Shown here: positions 35,054-38,894 of the stretch, piece after piece
Layout of the letters: each line of letters starts with the position of its first letter
Position numbering within the stretch: position 1 is the first letter of the stretch
Origin: Teredinibacter purpureus
GTDB lineage: Bacteria > Pseudomonadota > Gammaproteobacteria > Pseudomonadales > Cellvibrionaceae
Direction of reading: 5' to 3'
NCBI RefSeq assembly: GCF_014217335.1
Contig: NZ_CP060092.1
Location: 1,629,501 to 1,693,500 of the forward strand
DNA length: 64,000 bases
Position numbers and translations under genes: made by a program
Notes under the pieces: model-generated
Seen by the model: only the letters and a program-made list of their open reading frames with translations
What the model was told of the DNA's origin: nothing
Databases searched by the model: none

Positions 35054-35154
35054 CGGTGCACCAATAAAGAAGAGGGCTGTTCATTCATTCTCATCCAGTC
35101 AGTGGTTTTATCCGTAAAATCACTGTCTCATTTATAGCTGAATTGGAGCCCTTC

Positions 35155-35550
35155 ATGCACACCCTCACGTTATTTTACGACGGCTGCTGTCCGCTTTGTG
35201 TCGCGGAGATGCGAGCGTTAAGCACGCGAGATACCCAACAGGCACTTGTGCTTGAGGATATCCAGCAGGAGGACTTTGTGTTGCGATACCCTCATATTAA
35301 TCTAAAGCGCGCGACTGAGAGGCTACACGCCGAGAGCGGCAATGGCGATGTGTTGTTGGGGCTGGATGCCACACGCGCGGCATGGGCGGCTGTAGCGCCT
35401 AGATCTTTTACGACCTTATTCGTAACTTTTTTACGCTGGCCTCTCGTGCGGTGTTTCTCCGATGCTGCGTACGGGATCTTTGCACGCCACAGATATGGAT
35501 TTTCGCGTTTATTAACGGGGCGGTCGCGTTGTGATCGTTGTAAAATATAA
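35155..35550 (+). CDS. DCC-family (DUF393) thiol-disulfide oxidoreductase-like protein
   Basis: 131 aa from ATG 35155. It starts LTLFYDGCCPLCVAEMRAL, the DxxCCPxC motif of the DCC family, predicted to have a thioredoxin-like fold. The C-terminal RYGFSRLLTGRSRCDRCKI adds a second CxxC, which is typical only of some members. No enzyme activity has been firmly shown for the family. It precedes the ergothioneine genes by 216 bases on the same strand; a functional tie with thiol chemistry is possible but not shown. Confidence 0.85.
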   Translation: MHTLTLFYDGCCPLCVAEMRALSTRDTQQALVLEDIQQEDFVLRYPHINLKRATERLHAESGNGDVLLGLDATRAAWAAVAPRSFTTLFVTFLRWPLVRCFSDAAYGIFARHRYGFSRLLTGRSRCDRCKI

Positions 35551-35766: not shown

Positions 35767-37035
35767 ATGACAAACACACTGGTTGATACGTATTTAAGTA
35801 TAAGACGTCAAACATTGCGCCTCGTTGAAGGGCTGTCGGCCGAAGACTTGGTGCTGCAGTCCATGCCAGACGCGAGCCCCGCAAAGTGGCATCTTGCGCA
35901 TACTACATGGTTTTTTGAAGCGTTTTTTTTGCAGAAAAAGTGTAAACATTACACGCCCTTTAATCCACAATTTCAGGTGTTGTTTAATTCTTATTACAAC
36001 ACCGTGGGGGAACAGCACCCGCGTCCACAGCGTGGCATGTTGGCGAGACCATCCTTGGATGAAGTGCTGGCGTATCGTCATCATGTTGATAAACACATGG
36101 TGTCGTTATTAACCGAATGCGAAGAAATTTCGTGCAGTGCCGTTACCGTTGGATTGCATCACGAAATGCAACACCAAGAATTATTACTAACCGATTTGTT
36201 GCATTTGTTTTTCCTGAACCCGCTAAAACCACCGGTCATGGCGGGTGATACAACACTGTTGGATACGCCGGTATCAAACGATTGTCAGCCCTATTTCAAA
36301 GTGTATTCCGAAAGTCTCACCACAATAGGCTGTAACGGCCCACAAAAAGATACCCGTAAGCGAAGTAGTGTACCGTTTAGTTACGATTGCGAACGCCCCG
36401 CCCATTCTGTTTTTATGCCAGCGTTTCGCATGTCGAATCGACTGGTAACAAACCGGGAGTGGTTAGCCTTTATGGATGATGGTGGTTACAAACAGAGCTT
36501 GTTGTGGCTATCCGATGGTTGGTTATGCAAAGAGCGTAATAATTGGTGTGCACCCCTGTACTGGATTCAATGTAAACAAGGATGGCAGGAATTTGGATTA
36601 GATGGCCTGCAGCCGGTCAACCTTTCATCACCGGTTTGTCATGTTAGTTATTACGAGGCCGACGCTTATGCGCGTTGGGCGGGAAAACGCTTGCCCTATG
36701 AATACGAGCTAGAAAAAATTGCACTGCAACGCCCTATTGAAGGTCAATTTCTGGAGCAACTGCAATGGCGACCGCAACCGGCTGAAAGTACGGAAGGCAT
36801 GCATCAAATATATGGCGATGTATGGGAATGGACGCAAAGCGCCTACAGCGCATATCTCGGGTTCATACCGGAGCGCGGCGCGTTAGGCGAATATAACGGA
36901 AAATTTATGGCGAACCAATTCGTGCTGAAGGGCGGCTCTTGTGTTACCCCTAAAGCCCTCGTTCGAGCGAGTTATCGTAATTTTTTTCATCCGCAACAAC
37001 GCTGGCAATTTAGCGGTTTGCGATTGGCTGAATAA
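35767..37035 (+). CDS. egtB: Ergothioneine biosynthesis sulfoxide synthase EgtB
   Basis: Non-haem iron enzyme joining hercynine (Na-trimethylhistidine) to a cysteine-type thiol with O2. 422 aa, the usual length. The DinB-like N-terminal domain has the iron-binding histidines in KWHLAHTTWFFE and VGLHHEMQHQELLLTD (H-x3-H-x-E); the C-terminal FGE/sulfatase-modifying-like domain has LVTNREWLAFMDDGGY, VSYYEADAYARWAGKRLPYEYELE, MHQIYGDVWEWTQSAY and the closing RASYRNFFHPQQRWQFSGLRLAE. Whether it uses cysteine or gamma-glutamylcysteine is not clear. egtD starts 13 bases after its stop. Confidence 0.95.
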   Translation: MTNTLVDTYLSIRRQTLRLVEGLSAEDLVLQSMPDASPAKWHLAHTTWFFEAFFLQKKCKHYTPFNPQFQVLFNSYYNTVGEQHPRPQRGMLARPSLDEVLAYRHHVDKHMVSLLTECEEISCSAVTVGLHHEMQHQELLLTDLLHLFFLNPLKPPVMAGDTTLLDTPVSNDCQPYFKVYSESLTTIGCNGPQKDTRKRSSVPFSYDCERPAHSVFMPAFRMSNRLVTNREWLAFMDDGGYKQSLLWLSDGWLCKERNNWCAPLYWIQCKQGWQEFGLDGLQPVNLSSPVCHVSYYEADAYARWAGKRLPYEYELEKIALQRPIEGQFLEQLQWRPQPAESTEGMHQIYGDVWEWTQSAYSAYLGFIPERGALGEYNGKFMANQFVLKGGSCVTPKALVRASYRNFFHPQQRWQFSGLRLAE

Positions 37036-37048
37036 AAAAGGAATGTTT

Positions 37049-38014
37049 ATGCAACTTCAGAACGCCGCTAGGCAAGAAGAGAGTGGTTATGCTTCGTCTG
37101 TGGTGAAAGAGTTTTTGGCGCATGTGCGCGATGGCCTTAGAAAACCGCAAAAACAGCTGTCTCCAAAATATTTTTATGACGAAAAAGGGTCGGGGTATTT
37201 CGATAAAATATGTCAGCTAGAGGAGTATTATCCTTATAAGTCTGAACTCAAGTTAATGCCGATAGTCGCAAGAGATATCAGTAGAATACTTACCGATCGC
37301 TATAGCGTAGTAGAATTTGGTGCGGGGTCGTTAACAAAAGTGAGGCCACTATTGGACTGGCTGAGAAAGATCGATCAATTTGTACCTATCGATATATCGG
37401 GGGAACATCTTCGGTCTGCCTGTGAAGAATTGTCCGGTGATTATCCTGGCGTTAATATTACGCCGATTGAAGCCGACTTTTCACATGAAGTCGATTTGAG
37501 CGGAGTAAACGCGAAGCGCCTTGGTTTTTTCCCCGGTTCTACCATTGGTAATTTTACGCCCGCTCAAGCGAAGTCGTTTCTAGGTTCTGCGGGTAAAACG
37601 CTAGGCCCAGACAGCTATTTTATTATCGGGGTGGATACAAAAAAATCACCGACATTTTTGCATCACGCCTATAACGATGCGCAAGGCATTACGGCAAAAT
37701 TTAACCTTAATATGCTGCACAGGATAAACAACGATCTAAGATGCGATATTCCTGTTCACTATTTCGAACATTACGCACACTACAACGCACTCAAAGGCTG
37801 CGTTGAAATGCATCTTGTCAGCACGAAAAACTTTGAATGTAATATTGCGGGAGAAAGCATTCATTTTTCAGCCGGTGAAAGTATTCATACCGAAAACTCT
37901 TATAAATATCATCCAGAAGAATTTACAGCGCTAGCCGAAAAAGCAGGGTGGTCGACGCAAAAGATATGGATGGCCGAGCGGGATATGTTCAGTATATTTT
38001 TGCTCAAATATTAA
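37049..38014 (+). CDS. egtD: L-histidine Na-methyltransferase EgtD
   Basis: S-adenosylmethionine-dependent enzyme that trimethylates histidine to hercynine, the first step of ergothioneine synthesis. From ATG 37049 the product is 321 aa, the typical length. Family stretches include LSPKYFYDEKGSGYFDKICQLEEYYPYKSE, the SAM-binding VVEFGAGSLTKVRPLLDWL, FFPGSTIGNFTPAQAKSFL and the C-terminal HTENSYKYHPEEF. I prefer 37049 over the ATG at 37043, which is too close to the AAAGGA ribosome site. Operon egtB-egtD-PhzF-like gene. Confidence 0.95.
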   Translation: MQLQNAARQEESGYASSVVKEFLAHVRDGLRKPQKQLSPKYFYDEKGSGYFDKICQLEEYYPYKSELKLMPIVARDISRILTDRYSVVEFGAGSLTKVRPLLDWLRKIDQFVPIDISGEHLRSACEELSGDYPGVNITPIEADFSHEVDLSGVNAKRLGFFPGSTIGNFTPAQAKSFLGSAGKTLGPDSYFIIGVDTKKSPTFLHHAYNDAQGITAKFNLNMLHRINNDLRCDIPVHYFEHYAHYNALKGCVEMHLVSTKNFECNIAGESIHFSAGESIHTENSYKYHPEEFTALAEKAGWSTQKIWMAERDMFSIFLLKY

Positions 38015-38015
38015 A

Positions 38016-38894
38016 ATGCAGGAATGGGAGTGTCCTATTCACTGTGTTCGTACGTTTATTGGCGGCGAGGGGCGGCAACAATTACAGGGGGGTAATAGGC
38101 ACCTGATTTTTAGGCTAGGCAAAGAACATCTTGTGGCCGAAAAAAACATTACTGAATGGATTAGGCAGTACTCGGCTCATAATACCCGCGATATTTGTAT
38201 TGCGTTATGGATAAAAGAGGCAGGCGCGACCTATTATCTCCGAGCTATTTTTTGTCAGTACGGTCGTTACATTTTACGGTGTGGGTCAGGCAATATTGCT
38301 ATTGCGGCTGCAGTATATCGTGTGGCTCCTCAGGTATTCCGCTCTAGTATTGTCGGTCTAGAAACCCCCGTGGAGTCGTTGGTGCTGGTGAAAAAAAGCG
38401 CAACCGAATTTGGTTATCGCGCGTATCCGTGCCCGCTAAGGCCTTTTTCTTGCTCGCGTCTTTGGCAGCGAATAACGGGTATTCCGCTCGTGGGAGGCGC
38501 TTTCTCGGGCGGCCCACGGGACTACGTTATTGTTGAAACGCAACACCACGCCTTTGTGCGTGATATGGTCCCGCTATTAAGACGTTTGTGTACCTATAGC
38601 GCACGGGCCCTCATTGTGACGGCGCCGTTTGTCGATACGCCGCTTTTTACTTCCACGCGGCACAGTATGCAATATGTCATGCGCTATTTTGCACCGCAGT
38701 ACGGTGTGAACGAAGATGCTGCAACCGGTTCAGCGAATATACAATTGATGCATTATTGGCATAAAAGGGGCGGCTACGGAGGCGGTAGTTCAGTCATGCT
38801 GGCACACCAATTATCAAAAGAGGGGGCGGTAATGGAGGGAGTATGTTCACGGTCACTCATTACCTTGTTTGGCCGAGTGAATTTTGAACAGTAA
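38016..38894 (+). CDS. Divergent PhzF/DapF-fold protein encoded in the ergothioneine operon
   Basis: 292 aa, beginning one base after the egtD stop, so tightly coupled. The C-terminal half carries MRYFAPQYGVNEDAATGSANIQLMHYW, the best-kept signature of PhzF-like isomerases. The N-terminal half is unlike normal PhzF: the usual GHPTLG-type motif is replaced by LRCGSGNIAIAAAVYR (residues about 88-103), whose CGSGN recalls the catalytic Cys loop of DapF and related epimerases. Canonical PhzF opening residues (GNPLAV) are not seen. No signal peptide. No EgtE-type C-S lyase is present here, so this gene could supply a pathway step or act on a related metabolite. Fold call good, function unknown. 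Confidence 0.7.
   Translation: MQEWECPIHCVRTFIGGEGRQQLQGGNRHLIFRLGKEHLVAEKNITEWIRQYSAHNTRDICIALWIKEAGATYYLRAIFCQYGRYILRCGSGNIAIAAAVYRVAPQVFRSSIVGLETPVESLVLVKKSATEFGYRAYPCPLRPFSCSRLWQRITGIPLVGGAFSGGPRDYVIVETQHHAFVRDMVPLLRRLCTYSARALIVTAPFVDTPLFTSTRHSMQYVMRYFAPQYGVNEDAATGSANIQLMHYWHKRGGYGGGSSVMLAHQLSKEGAVMEGVCSRSLITLFGRVNFEQ

Follow-up and report, generated by a model that had tools for sequence, protein, structure and literature searches.

In ergothioneine biosynthesis, the sulfoxide intermediate is the substrate of EgtE (model TIGR04343), a C-S lyase that depends on pyridoxal phosphate (PLP) and is reported to yield a sulfenic acid, pyruvate and ammonia (PMC4493562; papers are cited here by PMC identifier, for the part of their text that was available). 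The described enzyme that best matches the protein considered here in profile and fold is PhzF, the trans-2,3-dihydro-3-hydroxyanthranilate isomerase (PF02567, TIGR00654; structures 1u1v, 4dun and 1s7j), in which Glu45 is reported to be the general acid/base, Asp208 to hold the substrate ammonium and Gly73, His74, Gly212 and Ser213 to hold the carboxylate (PMC4586147). A stretch of 64,000 nucleotides from Teredinibacter purpureus (Gammaproteobacteria, Cellvibrionaceae; contig NZ_CP060092.1, positions 1,629,501 to 1,693,500), hereafter the window, carries egtB, egtD and a diverged PhzF-fold gene in one tight operon. In many marine bacteria, egtB and egtD are accompanied by relatives of this PhzF-like gene, which form a clade linked to these two genes far beyond chance. 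A role of the PhzF-like gene together with egtB and egtD is nearly certain. It is quite possible, though still doubtful, that its product is a dedicated PLP-independent C-S lyase, which would replace EgtE by removing the alpha-proton of the cysteinyl group and expelling the sulfenate in a beta-elimination.

The egtB and egtD genes of the window are canonical, as stated in an earlier interpretation made from the sequence alone (hereafter the original prediction), since both exceed their NCBIfam equivalog cut-offs (Table 1). A SenA/selenoneine reading of the window EgtB was rejected, the SenA model giving 315 bits for a cut-off of 420. One base separates the stop codon of egtD (TAA, 38012–38014) from the ATG of the PhzF-like gene (38016), as had also been noted. 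The egtD start at 37049 is inferred: AAAGGA lies six bases upstream, the open reading frame (ORF) is open from 36941 and an alternative ATG is found at 37043. Promoter and terminator scans gave nothing better than chance.

The linkage was surveyed with a motif built from linked proteins, the scan itself not being conditioned on egt genes. In 84,980 species, the motif matched 53 stretches, of which 41 were confirmed and counted (the other 12 were left out), and egtB and/or egtD adjoin all 41 confirmed loci. The ORF was called in 39 of them and is always on the same strand as its egt neighbour. In 19 loci it is located downstream of egtD, an arrangement found in Gilvimarinus, Marinimicrobium, Agaribacterium, Pseudomaricurvus, other Cellvibrionaceae and Idiomarina, and in 20 loci it is located upstream of egtB, as in Haliea, Halioglobus and other gammaproteobacterial genomes. 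Three loci from Cellvibrionaceae (L122, L126 and L127) have the PhzF-like gene convergent to egtD. As the gene lies downstream, upstream or convergent and is still beside egt genes, the linkage outlives rearrangement. The neighbourhood survey suggested in the original prediction thus finds conserved linkage, both in the motif scan and in at least 35 of the 99 genomes of the family Cellvibrionaceae that carry egtD. A protein search gave matches in 60 of 97 genomes, and the best-scoring matches adjoin egtB or egtD. The 41 loci came from an alignment-based search; a single-protein search of the genome-collection contigs confirmed no relative, and a search of plasmids gave PhzF matches, none spanning 80% of the query. 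Within flanks of up to 6 kb, the 41 loci contain no ORF resembling either the PLP enzyme of locus L117 or the racemase-like protein of locus L111, both of which follow egtD in other operons (see below).

The window protein is predicted to adopt the PhzF fold, as had been proposed. It matches Pfam PF02567 above the cut-off of 27 bits, over residues 169–260 only (its C-terminal half), and falls below the cut-off of the NCBIfam PhzF model TIGR00654 (20.6 bits for 76.2). Among Pfam and NCBIfam models, only those of PhzF match: neither a PLP-enzyme model nor PF01678 does. The family profile aligns to PhzF structures over nearly the whole length (4dun, 1.9e-31; 1s7j, 2.2e-30). An AlphaFold2 model computed from the window protein and 40 relatives has a mean predicted local distance difference test score of 91 and a predicted template modelling (TM) score of 0.90. 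Among the best 50 of its 93 Foldseek matches at E <= 0.001, the top ones belong to the PhzF family (1s7j, TM 0.71/0.79; 4dun, 0.70/0.77; 1xub). Lower matches include hydroxyproline epimerases, proline racemase, O-ureidoserine racemase, DapF (8qzy, TM 0.57/0.60) and trans-3-hydroxyproline dehydratases (4k7g, 6r76 and the human enzyme 7qpo, TM 0.60/0.53). Taken together, the profile and Foldseek comparisons place hydroxyproline epimerases, O-ureidoserine racemase, DapF and PhzF among the relatives.

Residues were compared in 64 egt-linked and 12 usable unlinked PhzF proteins, after removal of duplicates. L126 and the wrong-frame artefact U_L023 were not counted and L167, incomplete at a contig end, was left out of set A2; read separately from the alignment, the L126 protein has CGHG and EDSATGSA. 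The column of Glu45 holds Glu in only two of the 64 linked proteins (L264 and L298), versus 11 of the 12 unlinked ones, this stretch being loosely aligned with gaps in five linked rows; it is not Glu in the window protein. The remainder of the PhzF pocket is kept. Equivalents of Gly73, Asp208, Thr211, Gly212 and Ser213 are found in the linked family, Asp234, Gly238 and Ser239 of the window protein corresponding to Asp208, Gly212 and Ser213, and Asp234 and Thr237 are conserved in 61 and 62 of 63 linked proteins, respectively (Thr is also common in unlinked ones). The linked family thus retains a pocket for the amino and carboxylate groups of an amino acid and has lost the PhzF base. In a FastTree tree of 74 sequences (E_L167, E_L125 and U_L023 omitted), the linked proteins without Glu45 stand apart from Glu45-type PhzF with no misplacement and a support of 0.85, or 0.99 if the paralog U_L002 is counted with the linked side; L264 and L298 were grouped with ordinary PhzF in this split test.

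Both LRCGSGNIAIAAAV and DAATGSA are present in the window protein as described, and the former had been read as an epimerase-like Cys loop replacing a His motif of PhzF. One part of this claim stands, albeit on a weak match: in an hhalign alignment with the DapF of the same genome (E 2.3e-4, probability 45), the two catalytic Cys of DapF pair with Cys89 and Thr237, in this order. In the AlphaFold2 model, Cys89 and Thr237 immediately precede helices 90–103 and 238–251, respectively, and the catalytic Cys residues of DapF are reported to sit on helices (PMC8142540). The other part is not supported in the form given. The residue equivalent to His74 is Ser91, not Cys89, and the His74 column of the 63 readable linked sequences holds 30 Ser, 29 His, three Ala and one Ile, so that roughly one linked sequence in two retains His. 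Cys89 as an acquisition of the linked family was rejected, as it is found in all 63 readable linked proteins and in 12 of 12 ordinary PhzF paralogs, which read CGHA or CGHG. The branch of the window has undergone a His to Ser change in its CGSG loop together with a loss of the Glu45 region. The loss of Glu45, absent from the original prediction, is a larger catalytic change than that of the Cys/His loop.

As had been noted, the operon has no egtE, and EgtE was not found in the genome of T. purpureus among its seven Aminotran_5 matches (two below cut-off and none in the window). These seven proteins, from their sequences and neighbours, we take to be SufS, an IscS-like protein, a serine-glyoxylate-aminotransferase-like protein, MetZ, HisC, GcvP and an AlaA-like protein. 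Among the matches listed for this genome, the best score with the EgtE model is 84.8 bits, at the place of SufS, for a cut-off of 400, and none of the 144 genomes of the family exceeds this cut-off. The clearest candidate in the family scores 134 bits (genome G038), the next (G121) scoring 109 bits and being probably SufS from its position and length. Only one Cys/Met-type PLP enzyme, MetZ-like by reading, exceeds the Pfam cut-off in the T. purpureus genome, this search not having extended to PatB-like and other PLP families. At the class level, an EgtE-like match of at least 119 bits was found in only 4 of 133 genomes with egtD; as at most five candidates were scored per genome, some EgtE may be missed.

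Other genes occupy the place of the PhzF-like gene in some operons. Within the family, 99 of 144 genomes carry egtD, two weak matches (G101 and G009, <=27 bits) not being included. Of these, at least 35 have a PhzF-like neighbour (24 strong, eight weaker and three very divergent), five have a racemase-like neighbour, one has a PLP enzyme and 58, including 48 of genus g4, have no third gene found. This tally is based on match coordinates and fetched loci; among the loci that lack a third gene, four of those from g4 (out of 48) and nine of the remaining 10 were read directly; listed PhzF matches reach down to about 83 bits, and a divergent type of 40–60 bits (L102–L104) is visible only in fetched loci. 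Named motif-scan loci and family genomes overlap, and their counts are not additive. Among 138 further loci (135 class-level and three phylum-level), four have a PhzF neighbour (two of this clade and two ordinary), one has a racemase-like gene and three have a PLP gene in the stretch. In L117, an EgtE-like PLP enzyme is encoded directly after egtD; the same gene is the 134-bit match of G038. The racemase-like proteins belong to the Asp/Glu racemase family (four scanned, 34.7–40.3 bits for a Pfam cut-off of 31; L112 and L352 assigned by similarity). Linked ones have PN(I/V)TLH before the conserved His, versus CTNTMH in 15 of 15 unlinked paralogs, and keep the second Cys (ACTELS). These unlinked paralogs look similar to EcL-DER, their first catalytic position mapping to a Thr, and the single Cys is thus not special to the linked proteins either. 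EcL-DER is reported to convert L-Asp in one direction with a Thr/Cys pair (PMC8142540; residue numbers from PMC12838360). The racemase-like gene is another candidate for the replacement of EgtE. The use of one slot by a PLP enzyme and by two cofactor-free folds unrelated to each other suggests one shared step, the lyase reaction being the step that lacks a gene.

Taken as a whole, the proposed pathway can be viewed as follows, the substrate, the reaction and the role of each residue being what we infer for the PhzF-like protein. EgtD would make hercynine and EgtB would couple it to cysteine, giving the sulfoxide; the partner of hercynine is taken to be cysteine and not gamma-glutamylcysteine, as the operon encodes no EgtC. 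The PhzF-like protein would hold the cysteinyl amino acid, through Gly90, Gly238 and Ser239 for the carboxylate and Asp234 for the ammonium. Cys89, in place of the first Cys of DapF, would take the alpha-proton, and the sulfenate would depart by beta-elimination without PLP, leaving ergothioneine sulfenic acid, which would be reduced by thiols, and aminoacrylate, which would give pyruvate and ammonia. The substrate and products would be the same as those of EgtE, with a different protein family. A new pathway step had been proposed earlier with its reaction left open: a dedicated step is likely, given the conserved partnership with egtB and egtD, and C-S lysis is the reaction argued for here.

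Several described enzymes provide partial precedents. The trans-3-hydroxyproline dehydratases are reported to use one Cys and one Thr, a base removing the alpha-proton and the beta-substituent leaving (PMC4113996; PMC9309405). The PLP-free abstraction and elimination would be the same here and 7qpo is a distant fold match, but these dehydratases belong to another sequence family and release hydroxide instead of the proposed sulfenate. DapF and glutamate racemase are reported to catalyse eliminations, the latter turning 3-chloroalanine into pyruvate, and a Cys to Thr change is described as converting an epimerase to a dehydratase (PMC8142540). The superfamily of Asp/Glu racemases includes a C-S lyase, the dimethylsulfoniopropionate lyase Alma1 (PMC10349084). 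As a cofactor-free enzyme, it is chiefly a precedent for the racemase-like gene of the sister operons; it does not belong to the PhzF family, has two active-site Cys and releases a sulfonium.

Various data weigh against a PhzF-like lyase. The Cys/Thr pair is not diagnostic, as both residues are also found in ordinary PhzF paralogs, and Cys89 in particular does not identify the linked family. Ser/Thr is also reported for a dehydratase and Ser/Cys for an epimerase (PMC4113996), so that the reaction cannot be read from this pair of residues alone, and the racemase eliminations, a few enzymes apart, are reported for unnatural substrates (PMC8142540). Although the linkage of the clade to egt genes is total in the motif scan, most sampled egtB-egtD operons lack the PhzF-like gene. 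The mutual exclusion of PhzF-like, racemase-like and PLP genes is only apparent, being based on few loci (five and one for the latter two in the family). Distances between PhzF-like proteins and EgtD are correlated (Mantel 0.52, versus 0.78 for EgtB and EgtD; 0 of 999 permutations in either case; computed on the 51 loci, out of 61, that are non-duplicate and have all three genes), but this is co-inheritance, expected of any two genes in one genome, and no proof of a joint reaction.

Some of the same data would fit an accessory role, which we consider unlikely: a generic PLP enzyme or abiotic chemistry would cut the C-S bond, and the PhzF-like protein would handle the sulfenic acid or aminoacrylate, or act in salvage. 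Some ergothioneine is reported from recombinant yeast that has only the methyltransferase and sulfoxide synthase, and thus no lyase gene, its formation being put down to host activity or abiotic chemistry (PMC11993508). The 58 egtD genomes of the family without a third gene found would agree with this, as would the rarity of EgtE-like matches throughout the class, which also means that carriers of the PhzF-like gene do not stand out in lacking EgtE. However, such a role would account less readily for a gene that, despite rearrangements, stays beside egtB or egtD in all 41 loci, for the amino-acid pocket that its product keeps and for the single Cys/Met-type PLP enzyme above cut-off in the T. 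purpureus genome. A further reading, slightly less probable still, is that the protein isomerises or epimerises hercynine, its sulfoxide or ergothioneine, so that these bacteria would make a modified thiohistidine. The isomerases and racemases among the sequence and fold relatives, the racemase-like gene in the same slot of other operons, the one-way reaction of EcL-DER (PMC8142540) and the Ser/Cys epimerase (PMC4113996) would suit it, but neither known isomerase set is complete in the window protein, which has Thr237 where DapF has its second Cys and has lost the catalytic Glu of PhzF. An ordinary PhzF gene located beside egtB and egtD by chance is very improbable and was rejected for the linked clade, given the 41 linked loci and the separate Glu45-less clade in the tree. 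It was accepted for L264 and L298, which are Glu45-bearing genes on the opposite strand, adjoining egtB or egtD, and which the tree groups with ordinary PhzF.

Other genes were observed around these operons (Table 1). A DCC1-like thiol-disulfide oxidoreductase gene is located upstream of egtB in the window, and a similar gene, by sequence reading, precedes egtB in genome G007. In three genomes of the window's own genus, a very divergent PhzF-like gene lies before egtB; two of these proteins were scanned and have no Pfam PhzF match, and the neighbouring genes read as TetR-like, ArsR/methyltransferase-like and metK. Genus g4 (e.g. L120, L121, L140 and L141) comprises 48 genomes with egtD in which neither a third gene nor an EgtE-like match was found; the gene after egtD encodes a protein with a C(F/L)CC motif in the four g4 loci that were read. 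In 16 loci (L302, L307, L308 and 13 others), a glutamine-amidotransferase-like gene, EgtC-like by reading, is found near egtD on the opposite strand, and in 14 of them a divergent egtB is labelled, which resembles the mycobacterial pathway. A LysR-type regulator gene, by reading, adjoins egtB or egtD in six loci (L108, L109, L110, L136, L137 and L284).

Table 1. Positions of the features discussed, in the window unless a locus is given
Feature	Position	Strand	Evidence
egtB, hercynine oxygenase / sulfoxide synthase, 422 aa	35767-37035	+	TIGR03440, 526 bits (cut-off 360)
egtD, histidine N-alpha-methyltransferase	37049-38014	+	TIGR03438, 352 bits (cut-off 291)
PhzF-like gene, 292 aa, candidate for a PLP-independent C-S lyase in place of EgtE	38016-38894	+	PF02567, 45.8 bits
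CGSG loop, residues 89-92	38280-38291	+	hhalign against DapF and PhzF of the same genome; linked-family alignment; model
EDAATGSA, residues 233-240	38712-38735	+	Alignment, hhalign, model; residue roles as reported in PMC4586147
Asp/Glu-racemase-like gene next after egtD	L107:2403-3161, L111:7721-8476, L112:7710-8462, L114:6026-6694, L115:5856-6617, L352:3110-3793		
DCC1-like gene upstream of egtB	35143-35550		
Similar DCC1-like gene, G007	L139:4339-4785		Sequence reading
Very divergent PhzF-like gene before egtB	L102:4513-5283, L103:8905-9678, L104:9039-9830		

Among the open-licence papers listed, no related one was found that joins ergothioneine with PhzF, aspartate racemase or a PLP-independent C-S lyase. 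To our knowledge, a cofactor-free C-S lyase activity on a cysteine sulfoxide would be new for both the PhzF-like and the racemase-like folds. In 129 of the 133 class-level genomes with egtD, a scan that can miss some found no EgtE-like match of at least 119 bits, which leaves their last step without an assigned enzyme; two candidate gene families for this step can now be named from their conserved operon position. If the members of these families are not lyases, the products of their operons may be a new thiohistidine. If they are, they would be cofactor-free C-S lyases for a cysteine sulfoxide, which would be useful for the production of ergothioneine.

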